Assembly (NCBI GenBank): GCA_017893485.1 | Contig: CM030366.1 | Location: 184,433,947 to 184,497,946, forward strand | From: Hemerocallis citrina | Taxonomy: Eukaryota > Streptophyta > Magnoliopsida > Asparagales > Asphodelaceae | DNA: 64,000 nucleotides | Direction of reading: 5' to 3' | Shown: positions 15,767 through 64,000 of the stretch, piece by piece | Layout: each line of letters starts with the position of its first letter | Numbering within the stretch: position 1 is the first letter of the stretch | The notes under the pieces: generated by a model | The model's input: the letters and a program-made list of their open reading frames with translations, nothing else | The model's database searches: none | What the model was told of the DNA's origin: nothing | Program-made: the position numbers and the translations under genes

Positions 15767-15835
15767 GCGTTTGTTTTGATATTTTGAATAGAGTATTCTG
15801 AATAGAGTATTCTGAATAGAGTTATTCTGAAAGTG

Positions 15836-16790
15836 AGTTTAAAAGCTGTTTGTTTATATTGTATTCTGAATATTGTATTCTGAAAGCTGTTTATCTGAAA
15901 AAGAGAGTTTAGAAGCTGTTCGGTTATATTTCTAGCTGAAAACTGTTATCTGAAAGCTGTTTTTCTGAAAAAGCGAGTTTAAAAGCTGTTCGGTTATATT
16001 TCTAGCTGAAAACTGTATTCTGAAAGCTGTTTTTTCTGAAAATGAGTGTTTAAAAGCTGTTCGGTTATATTTCTAGCTGAAAACAGTTATCTGAAAGCTG
16101 TTTTTCTGAAAAAGAGAGTTTAAAAGCTGTTCGGTTATATTTCTAGCTGAAAACTGTTATCTGAAAGCTGTTTTTTCTGAAAAAGAGTGTTTAAAAGCTG
16201 TTCAGTTATATTTCTAGTTGAAAAGAGTTATCTGAAAGCTGTTTTTCTGAAAAAGAGAGTTTAAAAACTGTTCGGTTATATTTCTAGCTGAAAACAGTTA
16301 TCTGAAAGCTGTTTTTCTGAAAAAGAGAGTTTAAAAGCTGTTCGGTTATATTTCTAGCTGAAAACTGTTATCTGAAAACTGTTTTTTCTGAAAAAGAGTG
16401 TTTAAAAGTTGTTCGGTTATATTTCTAGCTGAAAACAGTTATCTGAAAGCTGTTTTTCTGAAAAAGAGAGTTTAAAAGCTGTTCGGTTATATTTCTAGCT
16501 GAAAACTGTTATCTGAAAGCTGTTTTTCTGAAAAAGAGTGTTTAAAAGCTGTTCGGTTATATTTTTAGCTGAAAACTATTATCTGAAAGCTGTTTTTCTG
16601 AAAAAGAGTGTTTAAAAGCTGTTCGGTTATATTTCTAGCTGAAAACTATATTCTGAAAGCTGTTTTTCTGAAAAAGAGTGTTTAAAAGCTGTTCGGTTAT
16701 ATTTTTAGCTGAAAACTATTATCTGAAAGCTTTTTTTCTGAAAAAGAGAGTTTAAAAGCTGTTCTGTTATATTTCTGACAATTTTGAATA
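15836..16790 (+). repeat. 70 bp tandem repeat array, about 13 copies
   Basis: Unit of 70 bp: GCTGTTCGGTTATATTTCTA, then GCTGAAAACTGTTATCTGAAA, then a 29 bp segment rich in CTG and GAAAAAGAGAGTTTAAAA. Each unit holds several inverted TTTTCAGA/TCTGAAAA and AGCTGTT/AACAGCT pairs, so the array can form many small hairpins. Copies differ by a few substitutions. Confidence 0.9.
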
Positions 16791-16797
16791 TCAATTT

Positions 16798-17781
<984 letters not shown>

Positions 17782-17959
17782 GAGAGTAAAGGAGGTGTTT
17801 TGGAAAGGAGGTGTTTTGGAAAATAGGGGGTATGAGTATTCTGAATATCAATTCTGAATAACACTTAAAACAAACGCCTATTCTGAGTGCGTTTGTTTTG
17901 TTGTTTTGAAAAGAGTTTTCTGAATAGAGTTTTCTGAAAACTGTATTCTGAATAGAGTT

Positions 17960-19065
17960 TTCTGAAAATGAGTTTAAAAGCTGTTTGGTTATATTTATTT
18001 CTGAAAACTGTATTCTGAAAGCTGTTTTTCTGAAAAAGAGAGTTGAAAAGCTGTTCGGTTATATTTCTAGCTGAAAATTGTTATCTGAAAGCTGTTTTTC
18101 TGAAAAAAATAGTTCAAAAGTTGTTCGGTTATATTTCTAGCTGAAAACTGTTATCTGAAAGCTGTTTTGCTAAAAAAGAGACTTCAAAAGCTGCTCGGTT
18201 ATATTTCTAGCTGAAAACTGTATTCTGAAAGCTGTTTTTCTGAAAAAGAGAGTTGAAAAGCTGTTCTGTTATATTTCTAGCTGAAAACTGTTATCTGAAA
18301 GCTGTTTTTCTGAAAAAAAGAGTTCAAAATCTGTTCGGTTATATTTCTAGCTGAAAACTGTTATCTGAAAACTGTTTTTCTGAAAAAGAGAGTTCAAAAG
18401 CTGTTCTGTTATATTTCTAGCTGAAAACTGTTATCTGAAAGCTGTTTTTCTGAAAAAGGGAGTTTAAAAGCTGTTCTGTTATATTTCTAACTGAAAACTG
18501 TTATCTGAAAGCTGTTTTTTCTGAAAAAGAGAGTTTAAAAGCTGTTTGGTTATATTTCTAGCTGAAAACTGTTATCTAAAAGCTGTTTATCTGAAAAATA
18601 GAGTTTAAAAGCTGTTCGGTTATATTTCTTGCTGAAAACTGTAATCTGAAAGCTGTTTTTCTGAAAAAGAGAGATTAAAAGCTGTTCGGTTATATTTCTT
18701 ACTGAAAACTGTTATCTGAAAGCTATTTTTCTGAAAAAGAGAGTTTAAATGCTGTTTTGTTATATTTCTAGCTGAAAACTGTTATCTGAAAGCTGTTTTT
18801 CTGAAAAAGAGAGTTTAAAAGCTGTTCTGTTATATTTCTAGCTGAAAACTATTATTTGAAAGCTGTTTTTTCTGAAAAAGAGAGTTTAAAAGCTGTTCGG
18901 TTATATTTCTAGCTGAAAACTGTTATCTGAAAGTTGTTTTCCTGAAAAAGAGAGTTTAAAAGCTGTTCGGTTATATTTCTTGCTGAAAACTGTTATCTGA
19001 AAGCTGTATTTCTGAAAAAGAGAGTTTAAAAGTTGTTCGGTTATATTTCTTACTGAAAACTGTTT
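17960..19065 (+). repeat. 70 bp tandem repeat array, about 15 copies
   Basis: Same unit as the array at 15836-16790, in the same orientation, more uniform in length. Common variants are TTCGG/TTCTG after GCTG and CTAG/CTTG/CTTA in the following segment. It ends at 19065, where the sequence changes to GACATTTTTTTAG. Confidence 0.9.
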
Positions 19066-19339
19066 GCTGACATTTTTTTAGTTTGTTTTGGTGAGATTGC
19101 ATGTGAGAGCAAGTAATAGCAGTAGTATGATAGAAGATTGCATGCTCGAACAAATAGGAGGTTTTTTTTTTTGAATGTGAGTAATAATTGGATTTTTTGG
19201 ATTGCTTGGTGTATTTGGATAAATTGAGTACGTTGAACCTGTAGGCTGCAGTTGTTGAAAAGATTATATGAAAGAAGATTTCTTCTAGCGGATTAAAACA
19301 ATTTATTCAAGAAAATAAGCACTAGACAATAAAAAAAAA

Positions 19340-26520: not shown

Positions 26521-28062
26521 ATGATGGAAATAATTCGAGACCCTAAATTAGGAGCTTGTTATAGTGATGTTGAACTGGCAGTAGTTTGAACTCCGCATAA
26601 TATTACAAAGCACGAACTCGTAGATAAGGTGTATAAAATTACTAACTGGGATAAAGTTGAATGGAATGTTAAAATACGAGCTCGATATGCAGGTGGAAAA
26701 GGAAAGTCACAATATTTCATGGTGGTGCCTATAGTCGATGATGACGCTATTGCTTCTATGCTTGCAAGAACAGTTGATCCGAACTACAGATGGACTGCAT
26801 TGGAGTTATACGTTGACAAAGTAAGGAATCACAATAGTCCGCCACATGTTAATCGTATACCAAGCCCATTACATGAAGTGCCTACCCATGAAATGAGTCC
26901 CCATCTGAGTCCTTCACTACATGAAAGAGTGTCGCCTAGAGAAGATAATCCCGTTTTCACAAGTCCAGTTTCTGAAAATTCACCCTTACACGACTTACAA
27001 GGGTTGAATTCTGACTTTATCCGCAATCTTATTGATAAGGAAAACAATCTTCAAAACTTCAATAATGCTGCGGTTAACAATGAGTTGATAGATGATGAAG
27101 AAATTGAAAAGGAGAATATACATGTAGATGAGGAGGAATATGAAGAAGATGATCATTTTGAAGATAATGTTAATGATGGTGATGGTGTGGAAACGGAAGC
27201 CAATGTTCCAACCCCGCCCCCTCCTCCTAAATTCATGGGGCCAATTGTTCCTGAATTTGAATCTACTGAAGGAAGTTATAATGCTCGGGTTCATCAAAAT
27301 CCTAAAGAATCATGTGGATCATCGAAGATCGGATTGTTGTACGTTGGGCAAAAGTTTGAAAGTAAAGATCATATTCAACATGCGGTGAAGATGTTCTCTA
27401 TTAAGGAACATTGAGAATTTGTAGTTATGAAATCGAACAAAAAGTGTTATGTCTTTCAATGTAAATTCCATGCAAAGGTAAATCTGAATGATGGTACGTC
27501 ACAAAATTCCGATGGCGGAACCGAGGTAGTTTGTCCATGGCAACTACGTGCGTGTATCCCAAAAGGAAAGACGTACTTCATTGTGAAGAAGTTAGGAAGG
27601 GCACATATATGTATCAATCCGACATTAAGTCAGGATCACACCAAAGTTGATTCGAAGCTAGTTTCTAATATAATCTTGAATATTGTTAAGGCACAGTTAG
27701 CAGCAACACCGAGAGCCATAATTGAGATTGTATTACTGAAATGTAATTATAAGATTTCTTACAAGAAAGCTTGGATTGCAAAACAGAAAGCTATTGAGAA
27801 GTTGTTTGGAGGGTTCGATGATGCATATACGAAGTTGTCTGCCCTTTTAGCAGCCATACAAGCCTCTAATCCTGGAACTTACTTGCATTGGGATAAGATT
27901 CCTTCCGGTCCCGGTGAAGAAACATTTAAAAGAGTCTTCTGGGAATTTGCCGCTTCGATTGAAGGTTTTAAGTCATGCCGACCGGCGATTAGTATAGATG
28001 GAACCCATTGGTATGGAAAATACAAGAGATGTTTGTTGATAGCAGTTGCAATTGATACAGTT
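26521..28062 (+). pseudogene. MURA-type transposase, N-terminal two thirds, broken
   Basis: One frame from ATG 26521, interrupted by only two stops, both TGA (26587-26589 and 27412-27414). An acidic linker (27085-27180) is followed by the Mutator DNA-binding region (GLLYVGQKFESKDHIQHAVKMF...), a Cys/Trp/His region (CPWQLRACIPKG...KKLGRAHIC), and the start of the MULE catalytic domain (CRPAISIDGTHWYGKYKRCLLIAVAIDT) with the first catalytic Asp in SIDGT. The frame then runs into the palindromic array and stops at 28104, so the second Asp and Glu are missing. A transposase would bind the terminal repeats and cut DNA; this copy cannot. Both stops fit CGA to TGA decay. Confidence 0.85.
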
Positions 28063-28680
28063 GCGAACTGCGACTATCAACTCTCCAAACTTCCAGAGAG
28101 TTAGCAACTCTCTGGAAAATTGGTATTAACTTCGAGCGCAGTTGGGAACTGTGCTAAAGTTAATACCAGGAGTGCAGTTGCCAACTGCGACTGTCAACTC
28201 TCCAAACTTCCAGAGAGTTGGCAACTCTCTGAAAAATTGGTATTAACTCGAGCACAGTTGGGAACTATGCTAAAGTTAATACCAGGAGTGTAGTTTCCAA
28301 CTGCGCTCGAAGTTAATACCAATTTTCCAGAGTTGCCAACTCTCTGGAAGTTTGGAGAGTTGATAGTCGCAGTTGGCAACTGCGCTCCTGGTATTAACTT
28401 TAGCGCAGTTGCCAACTGCGCTCGACGTTAATACCAATTTTCCAGAGAGTTGTCAACTCCCTGAAAATTTGGAGAGTTGACAATCGCAGTTGGCAATTGT
28501 GCTCCTGGTATTAACTTTAGCGCAGTTCCCAACTGCGCTCGAAGTTAATACCAATTTTCCAGAGAGTTGCCAACTCTCTGGAAGTTTGGAGAGTTAACAG
28601 TCGCAGTTGGCAACTACGCTCTTGGTATTAACTTTAGTGCAGTTGCCAACTACGCTCGACATTAATACCAATTTTCCAGA
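28063..28680. repeat. Large palindromic array inside the MULE
   Basis: Two units of about 118 bp in one orientation (28063-28295) are followed by about three units in the opposite orientation (28296-28680). Each unit combines CGCAGTTGGCAACTGCG, AACTCTCCAAACTTCCAGAGAGTT and TAATACCA segments, most of which are themselves palindromic. The array begins exactly where the transposase reading frame degenerates. It could fold into a long hairpin with small side hairpins. Confidence 0.9.
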
Positions 28681-47096: not shown

Positions 47097-47141
<45 letters not shown>

Positions 47142-49718
47142 TTGACATTATTATTTTTTCATACACTACACTATTTTTTTGTTTTTGTTAGTATGGGTTT
47201 TTTTTTTAAAGCCCAATATGTTTTCTTTTAAAAAGCCCAACACTTTCTTTCTTAAGCCCAATCCAATAAGATTTAGGGCTTAAGTACAATTACATAAAGC
47301 ATAAGGGGTTATGTGCAAAAGGTGAGGACACCTAAGCTATTCTACACCCTTCCACACATCTCTCCTTCTCTCTTTTTCTTTCTTTCTGCAGACAGCCAGC
47401 AGACAGCAGCAGCAACAGCTATGTTTTCCTCCCCTTTTTTCTATATATACATGTATATTAACTCCAATTACTACTACTACTATTTTACTACTTCTTCAAC
47501 AACTACCACTTCTACTACTATCATTTCTACTACTTATCTACTACTACTACTATACTACTATTGAAGCAAGAAGTCAAGGAAAAATCAAGGAGCAAGGAGG
47601 AGAAGGCGATTGAAGACTTTTTCACCAAATCAAAGTGGGTATTCTTCATACCTCTTGTGTTATTATTATTATTATTTTTCTTCATATATGGAATGGATGA
47701 TCGATGCTTGCTAGAAATTGTAGTGAGTGTTTACTTATGTGAATTTTATATGCATAAATATACTAGTGAATAACTAAAGATTTGTTCTTTGTGTTAAGAA
47801 TGATAGTATAAGTGTAAAGATGTGATTTTGTGGTGTTGTAGAGTGAATTGTCTAATTAAATTTTCATGTTTGAATGCTTAAAGTCCTTATGATTAGTAAG
47901 TTAGTATCTTGATTAGTAAATTTACATTGATAGTAAGCTACTAGCATTGTACTAAAAATGTTAGTAACCTTAGTTGAAATGAAGTAAGTTAGTAAGTTAA
48001 TATGTTAGTATGGTAGTGAATTAGTAGAATAGAATGTTAGAATGCCATGATAGTGAGAAGTTAGAAAGTTAGAAATGTAGACTTGACCTCGTAGTAACCC
48101 AATTGCTAACCAATTATTTATGATTAGTAAACATACATTGTTCGTAAACTACTAGTTTTGTGTTAGTAAGCTACCAACATTGTATTAGTAAGCTACTAAT
48201 GAGTTAGTAAGCTTAGTTATAATGTTAGCAAGCTTAGTTGTAATGTTAATAAGTTAGTTAAATAGATTAGTATGGTGGTAAATTAGTAAAGTAAATATGC
48301 TAGAACGTCTTGTTAGTGAGAAGTTAGGAAGTTGGAAATATAGACTTGATCTTGTTATGCTAGTAAGCAAATTGAAGGAGTTAGTAAGCACCCAGTCTTA
48401 ATAACGAAAATGCAAGTTCGAGATTAGTAGGTGGAAGGACGGTTGAATCAAGAATGTGATTAACTTGTGAAGTTAGTATAAAGTAGTGTAATTATTTTCT
48501 ATGGGCCGAATAAGGGCCAAGTGGGGTCACTAATTGAGAATAAGACTATAGTGTTATTTCCATTGTGATATTTCATTATAAATGTGAACAATGAGACCTT
48601 GAGTACTGATAATTTCACCTAAAAACCAAGTGGTGATTAATGAAGGAATTAAGCAGATGAGTTTTGACCTAAATTGAGTAAAGGTGTTAGCCCTAAGTAG
48701 TGTCTCGTGATTGGTAAGGACAGACACTAGTTGGGCGTGTACTACTCACCTGTCAAGGGGACACGTGCGGCGTCGTCTCGTCTGGGACACGTGCGGCGTG
48801 ATCTCGACTGTTAATTCCTGAGATTTAGTGATAGAGATGTCCAAATCTCGGGGAATGGACCCCTATGAGTATACGTTATGTTCTAGGTTATCCATATGAA
48901 CAAAGAGCTATAGTGTAACTTTCAATCTCTGGCGGAGTAAGGAAAGGCCCTGCCGATTCGTCCTGTGTTCGGATAACTTATGGTAGAGTCTGGGTGTGAA
49001 GAAGGACCACCGATTCCGACAGGATTGCAGCGGAGCTGAATGATCACCAGCCTGTCGGGAGTGGAGAGAGACCATCGGCCGGCAAAGTGGAGAGAGACCA
49101 CCGATTCCGATAGATCGGGGTGATCACCGACTTTCGGGAGTGGAGAGAGACCACCGATTTGATGCAGTAGACGGAATAGACCGTATTTACTGCAGCTCTA
49201 CCAGTCACTAAATAAATGTCAGGAACAAGAAGAAGTACAAGAGTAGGATGCATGGTGAGGGATTGAACTCTATCATCTGGAGAATACGAACTCAATTTGG
49301 GGGGTATGTAGTATGGGATGCATACGTTTCCAAATCAAGTTTGCATTAGATTAAGAGCATGGTGTGCATATGAATTGTGCATTAGAATCTAGATCATGAC
49401 ATACACCGATACTTGTGATTTAACTTTCACATTTTTCTTCTACATCAAATATTGATTGTTGAGGATTTTGGAGATTGTGGTTTTCATCCGCGTTGCGTCA
49501 GTTGTATTCAACTGACGTGCCCACAGTTTGCTAATGCAAGATCGCTGATCGTGGAGCAAGGGACTCGAGCTGCAGAAAGCATCCAAGTGGAAGATATAGT
49601 TTCCTTGCGCAATATAAGTTTCTAATTTCCTGTAATTTTTCTGTGTTGTGTACTCATTGAAGTAAAGATTCTGGGTAAGTGTCACGAGCTCCCAGTGTGT
49701 GGAACTCGGGGCGCTACA
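46937..49718 (+). repeat. 5' LTR of outer Tekay element
   Basis: 2782 bp from TGTAATACCCCTAAATTC to CTCGGGGCGCTACA. It includes a 124 bp inserted MITE (46975-47098) that the 3' LTR lacks. CACGTG-containing repeats lie at 48762-48793, and several GTGGAGAGAGACCACCGAT units at about 49055-49160. Open frames such as 47313-47564 are frame noise, though well conserved between the LTRs. Confidence 0.95.
46975..47098. mobile_element. 124 bp palindromic MITE in the LTR
   Basis: Starts GGGTAAAAGGGATATAAGC and ends with its inverse, about 50 bp of inverted repeat per side with one mismatch seen (ATAAGC versus ATGAGC). It sits in a TA run, so the length of the target duplication cannot be told. It is absent from the equivalent place in the other LTR (51294 onward), which proves insertion after the host element. 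The central 25 bp differs between arms. Confidence 0.85.
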
Positions 49719-49722
49719 AAAG

Positions 49723-49734
49723 TGGTATCAGAGC
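49723..49734 (+). other. Primer-binding site, initiator tRNA-Met type
   Basis: TGGTATCAGAGC, 4 bp after the LTR end. This is the complement of the 3' end of plant initiator tRNA-Met and the usual site in chromoviruses. Confidence 0.9.
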
Positions 49735-49912
49735 TAAACTTCAAAATGTAGTACCAACACAGCAGGAAATTAGACTTGGACGCTCCAGTTAGAGTCAGGT
49801 TTAGTTTGGATAGTAGGATGGTCGTGATTCATATCGTTGTACGTCCAACCTATGTTTACGATCTCCCTATATCCGGAACTAACTCCTGTGTATGTTTTCT
49901 TATTTTTGAAGA

Positions 49913-51074
49913 ATGTCGGAAAGACACGAAGGTGGCAGTAACGGACGAACCGAGGGTGAAGGTAGAGTCTATCAACGAAATAGAGGTAGCAACAACATGA
50001 GAACTGAAGGTGAAGGCAGTGGAGTGAATCCCGCCAATCTCAATACCAAAGCAGAAATTGCTCGGGTATATCAAATAATGGAAAATTTTATGGAGGCCAG
50101 CCGAAATATCGCACCACCACCAGGAACCCAAGAAAGGAATGCAGGCGACACCATTGCTAACCACGTCAAGATGGTGGAGTCTTTTAGAAGAATGAAACCA
50201 CCAGTATTTGATGGCCACGCAGATCCAACGGCAGCCGACGATTGGATTCGTCAGGTGGAGATTGTGTTTGACGTACTTAACACCATAAGAAAGCAAAGTT
50301 ACATTGGCAACTATTCTTTTGGAAAAAGACGCAGGAGTGTGGTGGCAATCAGTCAAGCGGGGCATGGGTGATGGACCAATTGCATGGGAGGACTTCCTAC
50401 AAGAATTCAGACAACATTACTTTCCTCTGGACGTCCAAGAAGAAAAAGCTATGGAGTTCATCAATTTGAGGCAGGGCAATATGACAGTACGAGAATATGA
50501 AACCAAGTTTACACAGTTGTCTCGATACGCCCCGAAAATGGTTCAGGATGAAGTTAAGAAGGCTAAAAGGTTCGAGCAGGGTCTTCGACCTGGACTGAGG
50601 TCAAGGATGGTGCCTTTATACATTCGTAGGTTTGATAAGCTAGTTCGACGGGCCGCAGTAACAGAGATGGATATGAACCAAAACAAGCAGCCGCAAGAGA
50701 AGAACGGGAATCAGAATAAAGGAAAGCGATCTGTTCCAGCCACAGATTCCATGGAGCAAGGCCCGAACCAGAAATTCCAGAAGTCTAATACGAGTACAGA
50801 AGCTGTCAAGTCAGTGAAGTGTTTCCTCTGTGGAGAGCGAGGACACGTTAAATCCCAATGCCCAATAAATAAGATTTAGGATAGTGAACGAACATGTTTC
50901 AATTGTGGAAAAGTTGGGCACGTCAGACCAAAATGCCCACAACTGCAAAAGAACAACAGTGGTCCAGGACAGAAGAATAATGATCAAGAGAAGAAGCCCT
51001 TCCGTCAGGGACGAGTTTTCGGATTGACTAAAGTGGATGCTGAGAAGGAAGATATGGGTCATCACGGGTACTGA
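49913..51074 (+). pseudogene. gag of outer Tekay element, frameshifted
   Basis: Starts MSERHEGGSNGRTEGEGRVYQ at 49913. A frameshift near 50290-50310 moves to the frame of 50304-50879 (LATILLEKDAGVWW-like, then FRQHYFPLDVQEEKAMEF). A TAG at 50877-50879 lies between the two zinc knuckles: CFLCGERGHVKSQC before it and CFNCGKVGHVRPKC after it. The frame ends at 51074. The gene is about the same length as the inner element's gag, so pol loss and not gag truncation defines this copy. Confidence 0.9.
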
Positions 51075-51280
51075 AGGATGTAATGTAATTTGTTGTGCAG
51101 CTAAAAATGATATGTTTTGGTTGTGACTAGAAGTATGAAAGATTCTATATGTACTCCATATGTACTTGGATGATAAGTGTTAAATTAAATATGATGCTTT
51201 GTTTTGAGATGGGTATGTTATGATGTTTTCTGGGTGTCTGATCTTCTTCACTAGTATAGTTCCGAGGACGGAACTATTCT

Positions 51281-51293
51281 AAGGGAGGAGTGA
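51281..51293 (+). other. Polypurine tract of outer Tekay element
   Basis: AAGGGAGGAGTGA immediately before the 3' LTR. Preceded by GAGGACGGAACTATTCT, which is almost the same in the inner element (GAGGACAGAACTATTCT). It primes plus-strand DNA synthesis. Confidence 0.85.
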
Positions 51294-51313
51294 TGTAATA
51301 CCCCTAAATTCTT

Positions 51314-51387
<74 letters not shown>

Positions 51388-53398
51388 TGCATTGACATTA
51401 TTATTTTTTCATACACTACACTATTTTTTTGTTTTTGTTAGTATGGGTTTTTTTTAAAGCCCAAAATGTTTTCTTTTAAAAAGCCCAACACTTTCTTTCT
51501 TAAGCCCAATCCAATAAGATTTAGGACTTAAGTACAATTACATAAAGCATAAGGGGTTATGTGCAAAAGGTGAGGACACCTAAGCTATTCTACACCCTTC
51601 CACACATCTCTCCTTCTCTCTTTTTCTTTCTTTCTGCAGACAGCCAGCAGACAACAGCAGCAACAGCTATGTTTTCCTCCCCTTTTTTCTATATATACAT
51701 GTATATTAACTCCAATTACTACTACTACTACTTTACTACTTCAACAACTACCACTTCTGCTACTATCATTTCTACTACTTATCTACTACTACTACTATAC
51801 TACTATTGAAGCAAGAAGTCAAGGAAGAATCAAGGAGCAAGGAGGAGAAGGCGATTGAAGACTTTTTCACCAAATCAGAGTGGGTATTCTTCATACCTCT
51901 TGTGTTATTATTATTATTATTATTTTTCATATATGGAATGGATGATCGATGCTTGTTAGAAATTGTAGTGAGTGTTTACTTATGTGAATTTTATATGCAT
52001 AAATATACTAGTGAATAACTAAAGATTTGTTCTTTGTGTTAAGAATGATAGTATAAGTGTCAAGATGTGATTTTGTGGTGTTGTAGAGTGAATTGTCTAA
52101 TTAAATTTTCATGTTTGAATGCTTAAAGTCCTTATGATTAGTAAGTTAGTATCTTGATTAGTAAATTTACATTGATAGTAAGCTACTAGCATTGTACTAA
52201 TAATGTTAGTAACCTTAGTTGAAATGATTAGTAAGTTAGTAAGTTAATATGTTAGTATGGTAGTGAATTAGTAGAATAGAATGCTAGAATGCCATGATAG
52301 TGAGAAGTTAGAAAGTTAGAAATGTAGACTTGACCTCGTAGTAACCCAATTGCTAACCAATTATTTATGATTAGTAAACATACATTGTTCGTAAACTACT
52401 AGTTTTGTGTTAGTAAGCTACCAACATTGTATTAGTAAGCTACTAATGAGTTAGTAAGCTTAGTTATAATGTTAGCAAGCTTAGTTGTAATGTTAATAAG
52501 TTAGTAAGTTAAATAGATTAGTATGGTGGTAAATTAGTAAAGTAAATATGCTAGAACGTCTTGTTAGTGAGAAGTTAGGAAGTTGGAAATATAGACTTGA
52601 TCTTGTTATGCTAGTAAACAAATTGAAGGAGTTAGTAAGCACCCAGTCTTAATAACGAAAATGCAAGTTCGAGATTAGTAGGTGGAAGGACGGTTGAATC
52701 AAGAATGTGATTAACTTGTGAAGTTAGTATAAAGTAGTGTAATTATTTTCTATGGGCCGGATAAGGGCCAAGTGGGGTCACTAATTGAGAATAAGACTAT
52801 AGTGTTATTTTCATTGTGATATTTCATTATAAATGTGAACAATGAGACCTTGAGTACTGATAATTTCACCTAAAAACCAAGTGGTGATTAATGAAGGAAT
52901 TAAGCATATGAGTTTTGACCTAAATTGAGTAAAGGTGTTAGCTCTAAGTAGTGTCTCATGATTGGTAAGGACAGACACTAGTTGGGCGTGTACTACTCAC
53001 CTGCCAAGGGGACACGTGCGGCGTCGTCTCGTCTGGGACACGTGCGGCGTCGTCTCGTCTGGGACACGTGCGGCGTGATCTCGACTGTTAATTCCTGAGA
53101 TTTAGTGATAGAGATGTCCAAATCTCAAGGAATGGACCCCTATGAGTATACGTTATGTTCTAGGTTATCCATATGAACAAAGAGCTATAGTGTAACTCTC
53201 AATCTCTGGCGGAGTAAGGAAAGGCCCTGCCGATTCGTCCTGTGTTCGGATAACTTATGGTAGAGTCCGGGTGTGGAGAAGGACCACCGATTCCGACAGG
53301 ATTGCAGCGGAGCTGAATGATCACCAGCCTGTCGGGAGTGGAGAGAGACCACCGGCCGGCAAAGTGGAGAGAGACCACCGATTCCGATAGATCGGGGT
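51294..53398 (+). repeat. 3' LTR of outer Tekay element, left part
   Basis: Matches the 5' LTR closely but with a longer (AT)n(AC)n run (51317-51388), no MITE, and three instead of two CACGTG repeat units (53013, 53039, 53065). It breaks off at ATCGGGGT, where the 5' LTR continues GATCACCGAC. The rest should follow the inner element beyond the window. Confidence 0.95.
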
Positions 53399-55988
53399 TG
53401 TAATACCCCCGGTATGTAAATATTTCTCTTTTTTTTTTTTCCTTGCAATAAAAATATATGTATGTGTTGATTTTATATATACATATGTGCATTGGTAATG
53501 TCAACATACACTATGGTAAGTTTCCTTACTTAATGTGTTTTGTTCTTTTGTTTTCTTTTTCTTTCCTTCTTAAAAAGCCCAACTTTCCCTCTCTTTAAAG
53601 CCCAACCCATTAAGATTTAGGGGTAAAATGCAATTAGTGGAAACCTAAGGGGGTAAAAGTAAAAATGGGTGACACCTAAGCTCCCTAGAAGTCTCCACAC
53701 ACACCCACAATCCTCTTTTTCCCTCTCATTTTTTCTGGACAGCAGTAGCAGCAGAACTGCAGCCAGTCCTTTCCCCTTTTTTTTTTCTATTTAATTACCC
53801 CTTCAACTCCTACTATTACTATACCTACTACTACTTACTTTCCTACATTTTCCTCCTACTCTTTCTTCTCCCTTTTGCTGCCGACAGCAACAGCAAGCAA
53901 TAGTTTTTTTTTTTCATCCCTCTTTTTCTATACATAGATACTACTACTTAACTACTTCCAACAACTACTACTACTTCTTCAAACTACTATTATACTACTA
54001 CTTGGAGCAAGAAGACAAGTAGGCTAAAGGTGAGTTTAGTTCACACTTGGCTCCATTTTTTTATATATTCTATATTCCAATTCTAATTAATTTACTACCA
54101 ATTTTATTTTCCTAGAAATATTGGAGTTGATATCAAAAGGAGTTTTTTTTAAAGAAGACAAAGCAAGGGTTTAAGGTGGGTGTTTTTCCTCCTTGTATGT
54201 TTTTTTTTATAAAATTTTTAGTAGTTGATTGTTTGGATTATTTGATTAATAATAGCTTGTTATTAAGAATTTAAGTAGTAGTTTGTTAGAATGATTGTAT
54301 AATAGTTAAATTATAGCCAAGAAAAGGAATGGTTGTTAATAGATCATTTTGGTAAAAGGTATGGATTACTTGATGAATTAAAAATTTATAGTAAATTGTT
54401 GATGTCTTGTTGTAGTGGTAGATTAAAAATTATCATAGATTAAAGTATTAATAGAACACAAACGGTTGTGAATGCATGCTTTTGTATGTTTGACACCGCT
54501 AAATTAGGAAGCAAAAGGAAACGAAAAGGAAAACAAGTAGAAAAGAAAGAAAAGTATGGTTGTTTAGATAATCATACAATTTGAATTTGTTAGTAAGATG
54601 TTAGATTATGAGTATTATGTTGTTTAATTACTTGGTAGTTTATTATCTCTATTTAAGTGAACATAGATAACCAAATAAAATAAATGCATGCTTTACGAAA
54701 AGTTTAAAAGTTTAACGGACCTTGTGAATAAATTTTGAAGTGAGTATTTGGTTATTCACATATACATGTCTAAACAACATAAGGTAGGAAAGAAGTATAT
54801 ATTAAACGATGTTCCTTGTTACATAAAGGAGTATTAATTGATGAATAACGATTGGTGGAATATTTCGGAAAGTTGCCATATGATTATTGCTTTTCCGAAG
54901 AGCCTTTAAAACCTAGAATTTATACTATGTAGATAAATAGTAAATTAAGAAATCCATTAGCATAATTCAACCACTAGTACTAGAATTTCCTAGAAGATTG
55001 AGATAATTGGTAAGGACAGGCACTAGTTGGGTGTTGTACTCTCCTGTCAAGGGGACACGTGCGGCGTGGTCTCGTCTGGGACACGTGCGGCGTGGTCTCG
55101 TCTGTTAATTTCTGGGATTTAGTGATAAGGACTGTATGGTGGAAGTTAGGGAATGGACCCTCCAAAACCACCTAAGGTTCTATGTTGTTTAATGCGAACA
55201 GGGAGCAGAGCGGGGCTCTAGGACTCTCGGTGGAGCAGGTGGGACCTGCAGGGTCACCTTTATGTTCGTAACAACTTTTGGGTAAGGTCCGGGAGTGGCG
55301 TAGGACCACAGGGGCCGGACGGAGTATGACCGGGGAGTGGCGTAGGACCACAGGGTCTCGGCATACATAATGGCATGACCAATAATTCTGACTGCAGCGA
55401 CGGAACTAGACCGAGCGACTGCAACCTTACCAGTCACTAGATGAATGTCAGAAACAGGAAAGAGTACAAGAGTAGGATGCATGACGAGGGATTGAACCCT
55501 ATTATCTGGAGAATACGAACTTGATTTGGGAAATATGTAGTATGGGATGCATATGTTTCCAAATTAAAGTTTGCATTAGAATAGGAGCATTAAGTGCATT
55601 TATATTTGTGCATTAGGTTTAGGTCATTGACACGCACTGACATTTTTATTGCCCGTTTTTTTATTATTTTTGCAGTTCATATTGTCATTTATATTACTGT
55701 TAATATCGATTGATTTGTGATAAGTGTTGAGGAGTGAAGCTCACTGTTTTTATCAGTTTACGTCAGTTGCATTCAACTGACGTGCCCACTTATCTTTAGA
55801 TTGCAGGACCACCCGATATTAGACTTAACCAGTGTTGGGCATTCCTACTCAGGAAGAAAGGCATTAAGGTAAGAAAAGAAATATTTTTTTTTTATTTTCC
55901 TGAGATTTTTCTGTGTTGTGTACTCATTGAAGTAAAAGATTCTGGTTGATGTCACGAGTTACCAGTATACGGAACTCGGGGCGCTACA
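53399..55988 (+). repeat. 5' LTR of inner Tekay element
   Basis: 2590 bp from TGTAATACCCCCGGTATG to CTCGGGGCGCTACA. Two 26 bp repeats contain the G-box CACGTG (55056-55061 and 55082-55087). AGGCTAAAG|GTGAGTTTAG at 54021-54039 is a strong splice donor match downstream of the likely start of transcription, so a leader intron is possible. Confidence 0.95.
55056..55087 (+). promoter_or_regulatory. G-box repeats in the Tekay LTR
   Basis: GGGACACGTGCGGCGTGGTCTCGTCT occurs twice in tandem (26 bp step), each with CACGTG, a binding site for plant bZIP and bHLH factors. The same unit occurs twice or three times in the outer element's LTRs. A regulatory role is inferred. Confidence 0.5.
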
Positions 55989-55990
55989 AG

Positions 55991-56002
55991 TGGTATCAGA
56001 GC
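55991..56002 (+). other. Primer-binding site, initiator tRNA-Met type
   Basis: TGGTATCAGAGC two bases after the LTR end, the same as in the outer element. Confidence 0.92.
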
Positions 56003-56175
56003 TAAACTTCAGTTGTAGTACAAACACTACAGGAAATTAGACTTGGGCGCCCATTTAGGATCGGGTTTAGTTTAGAATATGGAATGATCGTCAATCATGA
56101 GGTTGCAATTTACAACTTATGATTATGATTTTGCTTCCTATATCTAAACTAATCCCTGTAAATTCTCCTTGTAGG

Positions 56176-56670
56176 ATGGATAATGAGGGACACCAAGATG
56201 GGATGGAGGATGAAGAGGAAGAGGTATTTGAAGAAGAAGAGGAGCCTGAAGAAGAAGACCCTGAAGAGGACCCTCAGGAGCATGTGGCAAACGACATACC
56301 TCCCCTCACTCCACCCCCTGTAGACTCTCCTGATGAACCCATCGACCTAAATCCTTTTGCATCTCGAATGAGAAACCGCCTTACTGTGTCACAAGCTAGA
56401 ACTCAGAATAGAATTGCCGCACTTTGGCGCCATTTTTATATGCACAAATGGAAGACGAGCCAGCTTGAAAATCAGGTTCATGATATGAAAAGCCAACTGC
56501 TCATGATGGAGAAGAAATTGAAGAAGCTTGAGAAATTCAAGGCGCGAGCATCACGGAAGATTACGAAGATGAAAATTTCTCACCAATATAAAATTGCGTG
56601 CCTTAGAGAAAGACAAGGACAAATGCAGATCCAAATAGCCCAATTACAAATACAACTAGGTCAACGTTAG
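56176..56670 (+). CDS. Extra ORF upstream of gag: acidic, coiled-coil protein
   Basis: An open frame begins at 56119. I prefer ATG 56176 (MDNEGHQDGMEDEEEE), as it directly follows CTTGTAG, which looks like a splice acceptor. The 164-residue product has a strongly acidic N-terminus (about residues 9-40), a Pro-rich stretch (PPLTPPPVDSPDEP), then a long basic coiled coil (QLENQVHDMKSQLLMMEKKLKKLEKFKARAS..., ending QIQIAQLQIQLGQR). I recognise no family. It lies between the primer-binding site and gag. The outer element has only about 180 bp there and no such ORF. It could be an acquired accessory gene; function unknown. Confidence 0.7.
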   Translation: MDNEGHQDGMEDEEEEVFEEEEEPEEEDPEEDPQEHVANDIPPLTPPPVDSPDEPIDLNPFASRMRNRLTVSQARTQNRIAALWRHFYMHKWKTSQLENQVHDMKSQLLMMEKKLKKLEKFKARASRKITKMKISHQYKIACLRERQGQMQIQIAQLQIQLGQR

Positions 56671-56963
56671 GAAGGAGGCTTGGTCTAGGTTGTATGTTGC
56701 ATGTTTTGTAAGGTTTCTTGTATATGTTTTGGACTGATATGCGTCTTCTGAACTCTCCCGTTTGACTTTCAACCTTTTTCTGTGACTGTTGGACTAGAAA
56801 GCAAGAATGCTAAAGTACTGTAAATTTTGGTGTATGTTTAATGATGTAAAAATAATGTTTTGGTATGAATATTTGGTATGAAAGCTTACTTGATGATTGT
56901 CATGGTTGCTATATACACTATGAATATCCCCGAAATATCATACTAACTTTTAACATAATGTAG
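56671..56963 (+). other. Spacer between extra ORF and gag
   Basis: T-rich. Ends TTTTAACATAATGTAG directly before the gag ATG, which has the look of a splice acceptor. Together with the donor at 54030 in the LTR, this suggests alternatively spliced leaders serving the extra ORF and gag. Confidence 0.45.
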
Positions 56964-58133
56964 ATGTCGGGAAGCAACGTAGGAGGTGGTAATGGAAGAA
57001 CAGAGGGTGAAGGTAGAGTATATCAAAGAAACAGAGGTAGCAACAGCAGAAGAACTGAAGGTGAGGGCAGTGGAGTTAATAATGCCAACATCAACATCGA
57101 GGCAGAAATTGCACGGGTATATCGCATAATGGGGACTTTTATGGAGGCCAGCCGGAATCCTGCACCTCAGCCAGGGACCCAAGAAAGGAATGCAGGCGAT
57201 GACATTGCTAACCACGTCAAGATGGTGGAGTCTTTCAAGAGAATGAAACCACCGGTATTTGAAGGCCAAGCAGATCCGACAGCAGCCGACGATTGGATTC
57301 GTCAAGTGGAGACTGTGTTTGAGGTACTTAAAACGCCAGAAGAGAGCAAGGTTACCTTGGCAACTATTCTTTTGGAAAAAGACGCAGGGGTGTGGTGGCA
57401 TTCAATCAAGCGGGGCATGGGTGATGGACCAATTACATGGGAGGATTTTCTAGAAGAATTCAGGCAACATTACTTTCCTCTAGATGTCCAAGAAGAAAAA
57501 GCTATGGAGTTCATCAATCTTAGGCAAGGAAACATGACCGTAAGAGAATATGAGACAAAGTTCTCTCAGTTATCTCGATATGCACCAGAAATGATCCAGG
57601 ATGAGGTGAAGAAGGCCAAAAGGTTCGAACAAGGCCTTAGGCCCGGGTTAAGGTCCAGAATGGTACCCCTTGGCATTCGAAGGTTCGACAAATTGGTGCG
57701 TAGAGCTGCAGCAACTGAATTGGATATGAATCAAAACCAACAAACTCCAGGCAAGACGGGGACATGGAACAAAGGGAAGAGGCCTGTGACTGCTACAGAC
57801 ATCAAGAAGCACGGTCCAATCCAAAAGAAAGCGAACACTGGTGAAGGAGTAGCCCAAAACATAAAGTGCTTTCTATGCGGCAAGCAAGGACATTACAGAA
57901 GTCAATGCCCACAAATCAAGCCCCAGAATGATGCACGAACGTGTTTCCACTGTGGAAAGGTTGGACACATCAAGACAACTTGTCCGCAACTCCAGAAAGT
58001 CAATAGCGGGCAAAACCGGAAGGAAGATGATAAGGGGAAGAAGCCCTTCCGTCAAGGGCGAGTCTTTACTCTTACTGAAGAAGAAGCGGAAGCAGATGAG
58101 GCGGAAGGAGTGATTTCGGGTATGGATAAGTAG
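56964..58133 (+). CDS. gag: Gag, Tekay chromovirus (inner element), intact
   Basis: 389 residues, full length for the family. It has a Gly/Arg-rich N-terminus with two RTEGEG repeats, the retrotransposon gag domain at about residues 98-235 (KPPVFEGQADPTAADDWI..., FRQHYFPLDVQEEKAMEF, FEQGLRPGLRSRMV), and two CCHC zinc knuckles (Cys302/305, His310, Cys315 and Cys327/330, His335, Cys340). Gag forms the particle and binds RNA. The start ATG is the first after a possible acceptor. The stop TAG (58131-58133) lies within a 75 nt GT..AG segment; see the intron entry. Confidence 0.95.
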   Translation: MSGSNVGGGNGRTEGEGRVYQRNRGSNSRRTEGEGSGVNNANINIEAEIARVYRIMGTFMEASRNPAPQPGTQERNAGDDIANHVKMVESFKRMKPPVFEGQADPTAADDWIRQVETVFEVLKTPEESKVTLATILLEKDAGVWWHSIKRGMGDGPITWEDFLEEFRQHYFPLDVQEEKAMEFINLRQGNMTVREYETKFSQLSRYAPEMIQDEVKKAKRFEQGLRPGLRSRMVPLGIRRFDKLVRRAAATELDMNQNQQTPGKTGTWNKGKRPVTATDIKKHGPIQKKANTGEGVAQNIKCFLCGKQGHYRSQCPQIKPQNDARTCFHCGKVGHIKTTCPQLQKVNSGQNRKEDDKGKKPFRQGRVFTLTEEEAEADEAEGVISGMDK

Positions 58134-58194
58134 GACGTTTGTTATGTTTTGTGGGTAAAGAAAAGAAGTTAACATGTATTCTCTTTTGTAACAG
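58120..58194 (+). other. Putative 75 nt intron bridging gag and pol
   Basis: Donor TCGG|GTATGG at 58119/58120 and acceptor TTTTGTAACAG|GAT at 58194/58195, after a T-rich run. The segment contains the gag stop. Removing it leaves gag and pol in one frame (119 + 58195-58196 make one Gly codon), with 17 residues from the Gly of VISG to the Gly of the protease DSG. That is the spacing I recall for uninterrupted Tekay polyproteins. The outer element still shows VITG followed by GGGTAC at the corresponding place (51058-51070). Confidence 0.6.
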
Positions 58195-59978
58195 GATATG
58201 TAAATGTTAATGGGATGAAGGCTAGTATTTTGTTTGACAGTGGATCTTCTCATACTTTCGTGTCTAAAGCTTTTGCTCAAAAGTTAAATAACACTCAGCA
58301 AGCAATTCCGGATGTAGCTATGGAGGTGGCTACGCCATCAGGAGTCACTCTTGTTGCTAATAAATACTATAAAGATTGTAAGCTTCAAGTTGGAGAAGAA
58401 ACTTTCAGTATCGATTTACTAGAATTGGGCTTTGTGGGAGTAGATGTAATAGTTGGAATGGATTGGATGTCAAAGCATAAGGCAACAATTGATTGTAAGG
58501 CAAAAAGGGTGATCATTGTGATATCCGGGAAACCGAAAATTGTATTCCAAGGAAAGGGGAAGAGAGGTGACATGCAAGCAACTGTAGCCAATATAAAGGT
58601 GCCAGAAGACATTAAGAAGATTTCCGTTGTACGAGATTTCCCACTGGTATTTTTGGAAGAACTACCAGGGTTACCTCCGCACAGAGATGTAGAATTCAGT
58701 ATTCCACTCCAACCAGGAAGTGCACCTATATCGAAGGCACCATATCGAATGGCACCAGTGGAACAGAAAGAAGTCAAACAACAGATCGAAGAGCTATTGC
58801 AGAAGGGATTTATTAGATCCAGTGTTTCGCCCTGGGGAGCCCCAGTGCTACTTGTCAAAAAAAAGGATGGGACAATGAGAATGTGTATCGATTATCGAGA
58901 GTTGAATAAGCTCACAATTCAGAATAAGTATCCACTTCCCAGAATCGATGATTTGTTCGATCAACTTCAGGGAGCAGCCGTATTTTCAAAGATTGACTTA
59001 AGATCAGGCTACCATCAAGTTCTGGTTAAAGAGGAGGATATACCAAAAACAGCCTTTAGGACTCGACATGGCCACTACGAGTTCTTGGTAATGCCATTTG
59101 GAGTAACAAATGCTCCAGCTGTTTTTATGGATTTAATGAATCGAATTCTACGGCCATACTTGGACTCATTCGTTGTAGTCTTCATAGATGACATTCTAAT
59201 ATACTCAAAGACGGAGGAGGACCACGTCAGACATCTAACTGAAGTGCTGAATAAACTGCAAGAGCATAAGTTATATGCAAAGTTGTCCAAGTGTGAATTC
59301 TGGAAATATGAAGTTGCATTTCTTGGCCACATCATTTCTAAGGAGGGAGTGGCCACTGATCCACAGAAGGTCGAAGCCGTGAAAGGATGGCCCCAACCCA
59401 AGACAGTGAAAGAAGTTAGAAGCTTTTTGGGGCTAACTGGGTACTACAGGAGATTTATCCAGGACTATGCTAAGATAGCGGTACCACTTACAGGATTAAC
59501 AAAGAAGAACAAAAGTTTTGAATGGAATGAAGCGTGCGAAAGGAGTTTTCAAGAACTGAAAAACCGGTTGATTTCAGCTCCAATATTGGTCTTACCACAA
59601 GCAGATAAGGAATACGTGATCTACAGTGATGCTTCACACCAGGGTCTGGGGTGCGTTTTGATGCAGGAAGGAAAAGTTATCGCCTATGGTTCAAGACAGC
59701 TCCGGCCACATGAGAAAAATTACCCCACACATGATTTGGAACTGGCCGCAGTAATTTTCGCTCTAAAAATATGGCGACATTATGTCTATGGAGCAAAAGT
59801 AGAGATGTATACCGATCATAAGAGCCTAAAGTATATTTATCATCAGAAGGATCTGAACCTACGTCAGAGGCGATGGTTGGAAGTATTAGAAGACATTAGA
59901 CCAGAAATCAAGTATCATCCAGGAAAGGCCAATGTGGTGGCAGATGCACTTAGTAAAAAAGGAGTTTGGCTACATTAA
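58195..59978 (+). CDS. pol: Pol, first frame: protease, reverse transcriptase, RNase H (Tekay)
   Basis: Open from before 58195. The first ATG is 58215, but translation more likely comes through the spliced gag junction. Numbering from that ATG: protease LFDSGSS with Asp8; RT with the first catalytic Asp261 ([11 protein letters not shown]) and FIDD pair Asp325/326; RNase H with Asp472 (YSDAS), Glu509 (LELAAV), Asp534 (YTDHKSL) and Asp577 (VVADALSKK). All key residues are present. It copies element RNA into DNA in the particle. The frame ends six residues after the RNase H end signature, while the integrase frame opens at -1, so a one-base offset at the A6 run (59955-59960) separates them. Confidence 0.93.
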
Positions 59979-61507
59979 TCGCAACAAGGAAGGAATTGGA
60001 TGAGGAGATAAGACGAGCCGGTATTGAAATAGTTACACAAGGCTTGGGTGCAATATTGGCACAATTAGAACTACAGCCAAGTTTGAAGGAGCAAATTAAG
60101 AAAGGTCAGGAAGGAGATGCAGAAATTCTGGCATATAAAGAACAAGTGAATGTAGGAAAACTTCCGGAGTTCAATATAAGGGAAGGACTACTGTGGTTCG
60201 GAAGCAGATTGTGTGTTCCAAAGATAGACAATCTGAGGGAAGAAGTCATGAAGGAAGCACACACTACATTACTTACAGTCCACCCAGGAAGTACTAAAAT
60301 GTATCAAGACGTGAAGCAATGCTATTGGTGGGCCGGAATGAAACGAGATATAGCAGAGTTTGTAGCCAGATGTCTCACTTGTCAAAAGGTTAAAGCAGAA
60401 AACCAGAAACCTGGAGGTTTGTTGCAGCCATTGCCCATTCCAGAATGGAAATGGGAAAATATTAGTATGGATTTCATTACCGGGTTACCCAGAAGTCCCA
60501 AAGGACATGATACTATTTGGGTTGTGGTTGACCGACTAACAAAATCAGCTCATTTCCTCCCTGTGAAGATCACGTGGTCATTAGAGAAATTAGCAGAAGT
60601 ATATATTGAAGGGATAGTGAAGTTGCATGGAGTACCAATATCCATAGTTTCCGACAGGGATGCAAGGTTTACTTCGCGGTTCTGGCAGAGTTTACAAGTA
60701 GCCTTGGGTACGAGGACAGATTTTAGCACCGCTTATCACCCACAAACAGGTGGACAAACGGAAAGGGTGAATCGCGTCCTGGAAGATATGCTGAGGGCAT
60801 GCGTTATGGATTTTGGAGGAAATTGGGAAAGGTATTTAGCCTTAGTAGAATTTGCCTATAACAATAATTATCAGGCTAGTATTGGCATGGCTCCGTATGA
60901 AGCACTCTACGGAAGAAGGTGCCGAACACCTGTGTGCTGGTATGAAGTTGGAGAAAGGCAAATGTTTGGGCCCGAAATTGTGCAACAAACTTCTGAGAAG
61001 ATTGAACTAATTAGGAAAAGATTGCAAATAGCTCAAAGTCGACAGAAAAGTTATGCCGACACCCGACGAAGGGAACTGGAATTTGAAGAAGGTGACTCAG
61101 TATTCCTGAAGGTTTCCCCAACTAAGGGTGTAATTAGATTTGGGAAGAAAGATAAATTGGCCCCGAGATACATTGGACCATACAAAATCCTGAAGAGGAT
61201 TGGGAAGGCGGCATACAAACTAGACTTACCAAGGGAGTTGGTCCAAGTACATGATGTGTTTCATGTCTCAATGTTGAGGAAGTACATACCTGATCTGAGT
61301 CACCAACTAACCGAAGTTCCGGAAAATCTACAGGTGGACATGACTTACGAGGAGCAGCCGGTGAAGATAATTGATCGCCAGGAGAAAGTGCTGCGAAATA
61401 AAGTAATTCCCATGGTTAAAGTGCTCTGGAAAAATCAGTTTGTTGAAGAAGCCACGTGGGAGCTGGAAAACCAGATGAAGAATATACACCCTGAGTTGTT
61501 CAATTAA
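59966..61507 (+). CDS. pol: Pol, second frame: integrase with chromodomain (Tekay)
   Basis: 513 codons in the -1 frame relative to the RNase H frame, overlapping it by 13 bases; the first codon is TTG, so it is not an independent start. HHCC zinc-binding site (His99, His106, Cys136, Cys139), catalytic Asp169 (SMDFITG), Asp230 (VSDRDARF) and Glu266 (GQTERVN), GPY motif at about 404-406, then [11 protein letters not shown]. The C-terminal chromodomain (about 461-513, with [16 protein letters not shown]) is typical of Tekay and thought to direct insertion to particular chromatin. All catalytic residues are kept. The stop is 61505-61507. Confidence 0.93.
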
Positions 61508-61567
61508 TTTATGTTTTTCTTGTTTATCTCTCTATCTACAATTTAGTTCTGAGGACAGAACTATTCT

Positions 61568-61580
61568 AAGGAGGGAGTGA
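61568..61580 (+). other. Polypurine tract of inner Tekay element
   Basis: AAGGAGGGAGTGA directly before the 3' LTR at 61581. Confidence 0.9.
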
Positions 61581-64000
61581 TGTAATACCCCCGGTATGTA
61601 AATATTTCTCTTTTTTTTTTCCTTGCAATAAAAATATATGTATGTGTTGATTTTAAATATATACATATGTGCATTGGTAATGTCAACATACACTATGGTA
61701 AGTTTCCTTACTTAATGTGTTTTGTTCTTTTGTTTTCTTTTTCTTTCCTTCTTAAAAAGCCCAACTTTCCCTCTCTTTAAAGCCCAACCCATTAAGATTT
61801 AGGGGTAAAATGCAATTAGTGGAAACCTAAGGGGGTAAAAGTAAAAATGGGTGACACCTAAGCTCCCTAGAAGTCTCCACACACACCCACAATCCTCTTT
61901 TTCCTTCTCATTTTTTCTGGACAGCAGTAGCAGCAGAACTGCAGCCAGTCCTTTCCCCTTTTTTTTTCTATTTAATTACCCCTTCAACTCCTACTATTAC
62001 TATACCTACTACTACTTACTTTCCTACATTTTCCTCCTACTCTTTCTTCTCCCTTTTGCTGCCGACAGCAACAGCAAGCAATAGTTTTTTTTTTTCATCC
62101 CTCTTTTTCTATACATAGATACTACTACTAAACTACTTCCAACAACTACTACTACTTCTTCAAACTACTATTATACTACTACTTGGAGCAAGAAGACAAG
62201 TAGGCTAAAGGTGAGTTTAGTTCACACTTGGCTCCATTTTTTTATATATTCTATATTCCAATTCTAATTAATTTACTACCAATTTTATTTTTCCTAGAAA
62301 TATTGGAGTTGATATCAAAAGGAGTTTTTTTTAAAGAAGACAAAGCAAGGGTTTAAGGTGGGTGTTTTTCCTCCTTGTATGTTTTTTTTTTTATAAAATT
62401 TTTAGTAGTTGATTGTTTGGATTATTTGATTAATAATAGCTTGTTATTAAGAATTTAAGTAGTAGTTTGTTAGAATGATTGTATAATAGTTAAATTATAG
62501 CCAAGAAAAGGAATGGTTGTTAATAGATCATTTTGGTAAAAGGTATGGATTACTTGATGAATTAAAAATTTATAGTAAATTGTTGATGTCTTGTTGTAGT
62601 GGTAGATTAAAAATTATCATAGATTAAAGTATTAATAGAACACAAACGGTTGTGAATGCATGCTTTTGTATGTTTGACACCGCTAAATTAGGAAGCAAAA
62701 GGAAACGAAAAGGAAAACAAGTAGAAAAGAAAGAAAAGTATGGTTGTTTAGATAATCATACAATTTGAATTTGTTAGTAAGATGTTAGATTATGAGTATT
62801 ATGTTGTTTAATTACTTGGTAGTTTATTATCTCTATTTAAGTGAACATAGATAACCAAATAAAATAAATGCATGCTTTACGAAAAGTTTAAAAGTTTAAC
62901 GGACCTTGTGAATAAATTTTGAAGTGAGTATTTGGTTATTCACATATACATGTCTAAACAACATAAGGTAGGAAAGAAGTATATATTAAACGATGTTCCT
63001 TGTTACATAAAGGAGTATTAATTGATGAATAACGATTGGTGGAATATTTCGGAAAGTTGCCATATGATTATTGCTTTTCCGAAGAGCCTTTAAAACCTAG
63101 AATTTATACTATGTAGATAAATAGTAAATTAAGAAATCCATTAGCATAATTCAACCACTAGTACTAGAATTTCCTAGAAGATTGAGATAATTGGTAAGGA
63201 CAGGCACTAGTTGGGTGTTGTACTCTCCTGTCAAGGGGACACGTGCGGCGTGGTCTCGTCTGGGACACGTGCGGCGTGGTCTCGTCTGTTAATTTCTGGG
63301 ATTTAGTGATAAGGACTGTATGGTGGAAGTTAGGGAATGGACCCTCCAAAACCACCTAAGGTTCTATGTTGTTTAATGCGAACAGGGAGCAGAGCGGGGC
63401 TCTAGGACTCTCGGTGGAGCAGGTGGGACCTGCAGGGTCACCTTTATGTTCGTAACAACTTTTGGGTAAGGTCCGGGAGTGGCGTAGGACCACAGGGGCC
63501 GGACGGAGTATGACCGGGGAGTGGCGTAGGACCACAGGGTCTCGGCATACATAATGGCATGACCAATAATTCTGACTGCAGCGACGGAACTAGACCGAGC
63601 GACTGCAACCTTACCAGTCACTAGATGAATGTCAGAAACAGGAAAGAGTACAAGAGTAGGATGCATGACGAGGGATTGAACCCTATTATCTGGAGAATAC
63701 GAACTTGATTTGGGAAATATGTAGTATGGGATGCATATGTTTCCAAATTAAAGTTTGCATTAGAATAGGAGCATTAAGTGCATTTATATTTGTGCATTAG
63801 GTTTAGGTCATTGACACGCACTGACATTTTTATTGCCCGTTTTTTTATTATTTTTGCAGTTCATATTGTCATTTATATTACTGTTAATATCGATTGATTT
63901 GTGATAAGTGTTGAGGAGTGAAGCTCACTGTTTTTATCAGTTTACGTCAGTTGCATTCAACTGACGTGCCCACTTATCTTTAGATTGCAGGACCACCCGA
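61581..64000 (+). repeat. 3' LTR of inner Tekay element, continues past the window
   Basis: Begins TGTAATACCCCCGGTATG. Position 64000 corresponds to 55818 in the 5' LTR, the same offset from the start (2419), so gains and losses cancel. Differences seen: an added AA near 61658, CCCTCTC versus CCTTCTC near 61904, ACTTAAC versus ACTAAAC near 62129, and T-run lengths. About 170 bp of the LTR lie outside. Confidence 0.97.

Follow-up and report, generated by a model that had tools for sequence, protein, structure and literature searches.

The 64,000-nucleotide (nt) stretch of Hemerocallis citrina DNA analysed here (the window) contains a long terminal repeat (LTR) retrotransposon in which a 75-nt, intron-like segment lies at the boundary between Gag and protease. 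The parts of the two LTRs that fall within the window are 99.6% identical, and the insertion is therefore young. The gag open reading frame (ORF) has domain matches to Retrotrans_gag, Ty3_capsid and zinc knuckles, and pol follows the order protease, reverse transcriptase (RT), RNase H and integrase, as in chromoviruses. A C-terminal match to the chromodomain PF00385 (E 3.2e-5) reaches 24.2 bits, slightly under the cut-off of 25.1; with that match below cut-off, these sequence features make the element likely to be a chromovirus of Ty3/gypsy type. The long LTR and a primer binding site that we take to be of the initiator tRNA-Met type would agree with a placement in the Tekay clade. Copies of the element's own family in the same genome form two groups, A and B, and a sister family, C, carries a segment at the same site. 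The main features of the element are as follows.

53399 to 55988, + strand: 5′ LTR, TG...CA, 2590 bp (TG at 53399, CA at 55988), 99.6% identical to 61581-64000.
55991 to 56008, + strand: primer binding site, TGGTATCAGAGC..., read from the sequence.
56964 to 58133, + strand: gag ORF, 389 amino acids, with capsid and zinc knuckles; the predicted first exon ends at 58119.
58120 to 58194, + strand: intron-like segment, 75 nt inclusive, at the Gag/protease boundary.
58120 to 58121, + strand: putative donor GT, CGG/GTATGG (CTG/GTATGA in sister family C).
58131 to 58133, + strand: gag stop, one codon position that reads TAG (group A), TAA (group B) or TGA (sister family C).
58169 to 58173, + strand: TTAAC, the sole match in the segment to the branch-point pattern YTNAY, its A 22 nt before the acceptor G.
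58170 to 58172, + strand: second in-frame stop, TAA, in 40/40 copies.
58193 to 58194, + strand: putative acceptor AG, TTCTCTTTTGTAACAG/GA, an end conserved in sister family C.
58195 to 59978, + strand: pol, the protease-RT-RNase H part; the predicted second exon starts at 58195.
59966 to 61507, + strand: pol, integrase and a chromodomain-like C-terminus, in a different frame in the window copy only.
61581 to 64000, + strand: 3′ LTR, truncated by the end of the window.

An earlier note on this DNA had ended gag at TAG 58131-58133 and had bounded a 75-nt segment by GT at 58120-58121 and AG at 58193-58194, and the sequence bears out each of these positions. It had also placed pol in another frame, to be joined to gag by excision, which proves wrong: gag and pol already share one frame (56964, 58131 and 58215 are all 0 modulo 3), the segment amounts to 25 codons, and excision leaves the frame unchanged. 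The gag stop does lie inside the segment, as had been claimed, but gag and pol are separated in the window by two in-frame stops and not by one, TAG at 58131 and TAA at 58170. The site of the segment is inside the codon of a conserved Gly, within a V-x-[TS]-G motif between Gag and protease. As a side observation, the last codons of the segment, F-V-T-G, resemble this motif, and in both families the segment length (75 nt in one, 78 nt in the other) is divisible by three. The segment is probably a spliceosomal GT-AG intron that was gained once, in a small chromovirus-type clade, such that unspliced RNA would encode Gag and spliced RNA Gag-Pol.

The genome containing the window (3.78 Gb) was searched for further copies, and 40 of 765 first-look candidates, window included, were scored. 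The earlier note had proposed comparing family copies for presence or absence of the segment; it is present in all 40 (the window and 39 more), and both in-frame stops are kept in each, the first as TAG in 17 and TAA in 23, the second as TAA throughout. The rows divide into group A (17, window included) and group B (23), a division drawn from an alignment that includes the segment and hence not independent of it. Both the GT and the AG end are intact in 34 of the 40, the other six having one end altered. Four other copies match the window at 100% over a stretch of 251 nt, and copies with the segment are spread over many contigs. The chance that the arrangement reflects decay or an assembly artefact of a broken copy is close to nil. 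Between RNase H and integrase the window copy has a frame break of its own (59966-59978), absent from 33/33 other copies that cover the site, 6 of the 39 being without coverage there; the segment, by contrast, occurs in every scored A/B copy, across contigs, and in 12 copies of family C.

Between groups A and B, near-fixed differences (70% majority) number 5 in the 75 nt of the segment, where they are spread over three phases, as against 6/357 in the gag flank and 6/361 in the pol flank, where 10 of the 12 fall at third positions. The 5/75 of the segment compares with 2/479 at codon positions 1 and 2 of the flanks (p=0.0007) and with 10/239 at position 3 (p=0.36). By this count the segment appears to change like silent sites and unlike codon positions 1 and 2.

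The sister family was found in a protein search with an elm relative (P0109) as query, in which 49 candidates were scored: 29 are continuous across the junction, 12 are family C copies with stops at the junction, and 8 belong to the window's family. In family C (L086-L097) a 78-nt segment occupies the same site in 12/12 listed copies, each with GT and AG ends and each with three in-frame stops, TGA, TAA and TAA. The window and L086 are identical at 6/7 positions of the donor end (58119-58125) and at 14/16 of the acceptor end (58181-58196), but at only 29/55 in the middle (Fisher p=0.005 for ends versus middle, with limits picked after the alignment was seen). For comparison, when the 12 C copies are averaged, identity to the window in the two flanking exons is 44% and 63.5% at third codon positions and 79-88% at codon positions 1 and 2. 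Conserved ends around a middle that has drifted between families are the pattern expected of an intron. The branch-point candidate TTAAC is replaced by TTAAT in the B copies and by TTAAA in sister family C, and the peptide that the segment would encode is dissimilar between A and C except for its final S-F-V-T-G. The first in-frame stop falls at one codon in A, B and C, as TAG, TAA and TGA, respectively; since its identity varies and its place is constant, what is kept is Gag ending there and not the type of stop, which fits a selected Gag-only product.

Relatives without the segment are also found in this genome. For 12 of the 29 continuous copies (L074-L085) the junction sequence was read, and in 12/12 the segment is lacking, the flanks are collinear, and VIQG or VITG is followed by 13 residues and then by D[ST]G in a single frame. 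By eye these copies form three families, S1 (ten loci), S2 (L079) and S3 (L082). Of all 29, 20 are stop-free and 9 have at least one internal stop. A wider set of 41 continuous relatives, chosen from 127 fetched proteins for having the motif with 60 or more residues ahead of it, places the Gly 14 residues before the catalytic Asp in 39 cases. The distance in the window matches when exon 1 (..GVISG) and exon 2, which were translated apart, are counted together. The equality of residue count from VISG to the protease DSG that the earlier note had given is thus confirmed, both by these 39/41 relatives and by the 12/12 continuous copies of the same genome. In an alignment of the 58 relatives (of 127) that span the junction, 47 show 27 gapped codons, which may be read as the 25 of the segment plus 2 of a variable linker. 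A scan of viral contigs with a 215-residue protease-RT piece gave no relative, and a sample of five 10-kb stretches did not yield a junction that could be used.

A maximum-likelihood tree was built from 380 residues of RT in 29 rows (P0016 was dropped because of short overlap), including 15 outside proteins from other plants, three of which (P0011, P0021 and P0125) show no protease motif, give no readable junction and are labelled continuous only provisionally. The nine segment-bearing rows form one clade (support 92/82), which is joined to the continuous families S2 and S3 at a fork with support 98/97; continuous S1 and the 15 plant proteins fall outside. With this topology one gain suffices, whereas placing the gain earlier would require two or more losses in addition. 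The earlier note had held that an intron was gained and that its partial splicing sets the ratio of Gag to Gag-Pol. That a chromovirus-type element gained an intron-like segment finds good support in the continuous families, the diverged sister family and the RT clade; splicing, and control of the ratio through it, are predictions from the sequence. The source of the segment was not found, the only matches in the window and in loci L069-L085 being 12-17 nt long.

The putative acceptor at 58193 ranks 1st of the 421 AGs in gag-pol by a simple score and 2nd of 667 in the element by an approximate plant matrix. The segment is 37% T, which places it in the top 2.8% of 75-nt windows of gag-pol; this, like the lone YTNAY match 22 nt from the acceptor, speaks for an intron.

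Other ways of expressing pol across the stops were weighed against this evidence. Stop-codon readthrough in the common frame, which would add 25 or 26 residues between Gag and protease, would suit an insert of 25 or 26 codons between gag and pol in the same frame and without indels among 39 copies. It is nonetheless very unlikely, because two stops would have to be read in A/B (40/40 copies) and three in C (12/12), the first varies among TAG, TAA and TGA, and the segment peptides of A and C are unlike apart from their last five residues. The RNA fold at 58100-58220 is not unusual (z -0.48), which speaks against a recoding structure, and an Rfam scan of 53300-64000 at gathering scores gave 0 matches. 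Termination followed by reinitiation, with pol translated separately from an ATG at 58215 just before the protease DSG, we hold to be quite improbable. Such an in-frame ATG is present in 17/40 copies and at the same place in family C, but the codon is ATC in 23/23 group B copies (23/40 overall), the corresponding residue is I or M in the continuous families too, and in the window the stretch from the last stop to the Asp offers no further in-frame ATG. Ribosomal bypassing, from the Gly codon at 58119 to the one at 58194, was weighed as an idea and set aside.

Under the spliceosomal reading, the intron would have been gained inside the Gly codon in the ancestor of the segment-bearing clade (A/B and C). 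Unspliced full-length RNA would then be both genome and Gag messenger; Gag translated from it would add Met-Asp-Lys after the Gly before reaching the stop, with predicted ends of G-M-D-K in A and G-M-K-D in C. A fraction of the RNA would undergo splicing and serve as messenger for Gag-protease-RT-RNase H-integrase. The proportion of spliced to unspliced RNA would set that of Gag-Pol to Gag, replacing frameshifting or readthrough.

A search by exact pattern found no segment-less copy with exact flanks, compared with 32 exact with-segment sites for A/B. Spliced RNA may seldom or never be copied, splicing may be rare or absent, or segment-less copies may lie beyond the exact pattern. The same result would be expected if the segment were an inherited insert that is not spliced and that uncouples pol, the families making Gag only and using the Pol of continuous relatives. 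Many such relatives exist in this genome, and a related gag-only element adjoins (47099-53398). We nevertheless regard such an insert as improbable, because pol is retained in these families with its changes concentrated at third codon positions, and because what is conserved in the segment is its two ends.

Several observations weigh against the reading of the segment as a gained, spliced intron. Both of its lengths (75 and 78) are multiples of three and no indels occur in 39 copies, neither of which an intron requires. The donor is ordinary, ranking 20th of 247 by the simple score, with 53 scoring as high or higher, and 13th of 460 by the approximate plant matrix. GT or AG is missing in 6/40 copies; two of these six, L016 and L017, lie 42.5 kb apart and have a common altered donor, and they are 98% identical to the window over 251 nt. 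The branch-point candidate TTAAC is not preserved in family C, and the conserved acceptor end also encodes S-F-V-T-G, coding and splice-site conservation being inseparable there. The raw mean pairwise difference between A and B is only 10.0% for the segment, with 9.0% and 7.3% for the gag and pol flanks, a weaker contrast than that of the near-fixed differences, and the groups compared were partly drawn from the segment alignment itself. In the protein alignment, 27/58 spanning relatives have the gap at 58101-58181, and in no relative does it coincide with 58120-58194. This misplacement arises because the F-V-T-G at the end of the segment resembles the motif; protein similarity alone therefore leaves the boundaries unfixed, and it is the GT and AG ends that fix them. 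The support of 92/82 for the segment-bearing clade is moderate, below the starred level of the tool. Finally, the missing segment-less copies fit spliced RNA that is not copied and, equally, no splicing at all.

Two further features lie upstream of gag.

55869 to 55870, + strand: candidate U5 splice donor, AAG/GTAAGA, 2nd of 460 GT sites in the element by the approximate plant matrix.
56119 to 56670, + strand: extra ORF ahead of gag ('ORF0'-like), acidic over one stretch and otherwise resembling a coiled coil; second ATG at 56176.

The extra ORF is found in 16/20 upstream pieces of other copies, 10 of the 16 being stop-free in the aligned stretch, and its changes lean toward third positions. 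It matches no Pfam family at cut-off and has no match in the neighbouring element at 47099-53398 (element 2). The sequence of the candidate U5 donor is identical in 2/2 other copies whose fetched piece reaches it. Acceptor-like sites precede both ORFs, one at 56174 before the extra ORF (8th of 667 by the approximate plant matrix) and one at 56963 before gag (17th of 667), the latter with TACTAAC at 56941-56947 in the arrangement TACTAAC...TGTAG/ATG; the spacer upstream of gag that holds 56941-56963 is 39% T. We suggest tentatively, as a somewhat doubtful extension, that the element might splice like a simple retrovirus, from the strong candidate donor in U5 (55869), which lies upstream of the primer binding site, to the acceptors at 56174 and 56963, with removal of the 75-nt intron in addition for Gag-Pol. 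U5-spliced messengers would be without the primer binding site and would not be reverse transcribed, so that the intron would survive copying. Such leader splicing, a guess from the sequence, would explain the missing segment-less copies.

Elsewhere in the window, element 2 has two LTRs and gag only, pol being missing. The end of its gag, ..GTCATCACGG/GTACTGAAGGATG, resembles the start of the family C segment, and an exact 21-nt pattern from element 2 matched element 2 alone. At 15750-19166, 70-nt tandem repeats flank both sides of a block of short-step repeats, and at 28057-28680 overlapping inverted repeats occur with 118-nt direct repeats.

Since reverse transcription of spliced RNA should erase introns, a retroelement that acquires one and retains it is informative. 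With related families of one genome in the states with and without the segment, the origin of the intron is directly testable. The same setting makes testable the switch from a continuous polyprotein to splicing-controlled Gag and Gag-Pol, and the exclusion of spliced RNA from copying.

The rice centromeric element CRR is a chromovirus. Its transcripts, too, are spliced, but there splicing removes rt and creates two ORFs (PMC3735527), whereas the intron proposed here is small and lies at the Gag/protease junction. Single-ORF chromoviruses of Beta vulgaris (PMC3605345) have the same domain order as the element in the window, without the segment and with a continuous ORF. Families S1, S2 and S3 likewise share the domain order, and the junction residue count as well, and they too lack the segment and keep a continuous ORF. 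Retrosat2, RIRE3 and RIRE8 resemble the element in that their LTRs are long and an additional ORF precedes gag-pol (PMC3485330); the ORF0 of that study was found only in grasses, and its likeness to the extra ORF here is one of position.

Plant LTR elements are generally intron-less, with exceptions that include Ogre and EVADE (2025 review, PMC12786077). The intron of BARE1 measures 104 nt, its sites being CAG/GTAT and CAG/GA (PMC3735527), and EVADE has a spliced Gag RNA (PMC12786077); in both, splicing sets the supply of Gag, as is proposed here. The direction differs, however: in BARE1, EVADE and copia, splicing makes a Gag-only RNA from a continuous ORF, whereas here the unspliced RNA would be Gag-only and splicing would lead to Gag-Pol. 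In a 2019 survey (PMC6317226) most groups have a single ORF, and Bianca and Ogre have two ORFs with a spacer. Bianca, with a spacer averaging 172 bp, is thus likewise a two-ORF element, but it belongs to the copia superfamily (Ty1/copia), and its special expression strategy was inferred in that survey. Among the open-licence papers that the literature searches listed, none describes, in its title or the displayed beginning of its abstract, an intron at the chromovirus Gag/protease junction.

The closest parallel in strategy is Ogre, a Ty3/gypsy element of the Tat lineage with a partially spliced intron, in which splicing has been shown; here it is predicted from sequence. Membership in Ogre is defined by the Tat lineage together with an additional RNase H (aRH). 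Ogre does not belong to the chromoviruses, and the chromodomain-like end of the element in the window speaks against Ogre/Tat membership. The position differs too, the Ogre intron lying between GAG-PROT and RT and the 75-78 nt segment between GAG and PROT. If the reading of the segment as an intron is true, the RT tree and the Ogre literature together would suggest that the Ogre-type strategy arose a second time, apparently independently, in an element of chromovirus type.

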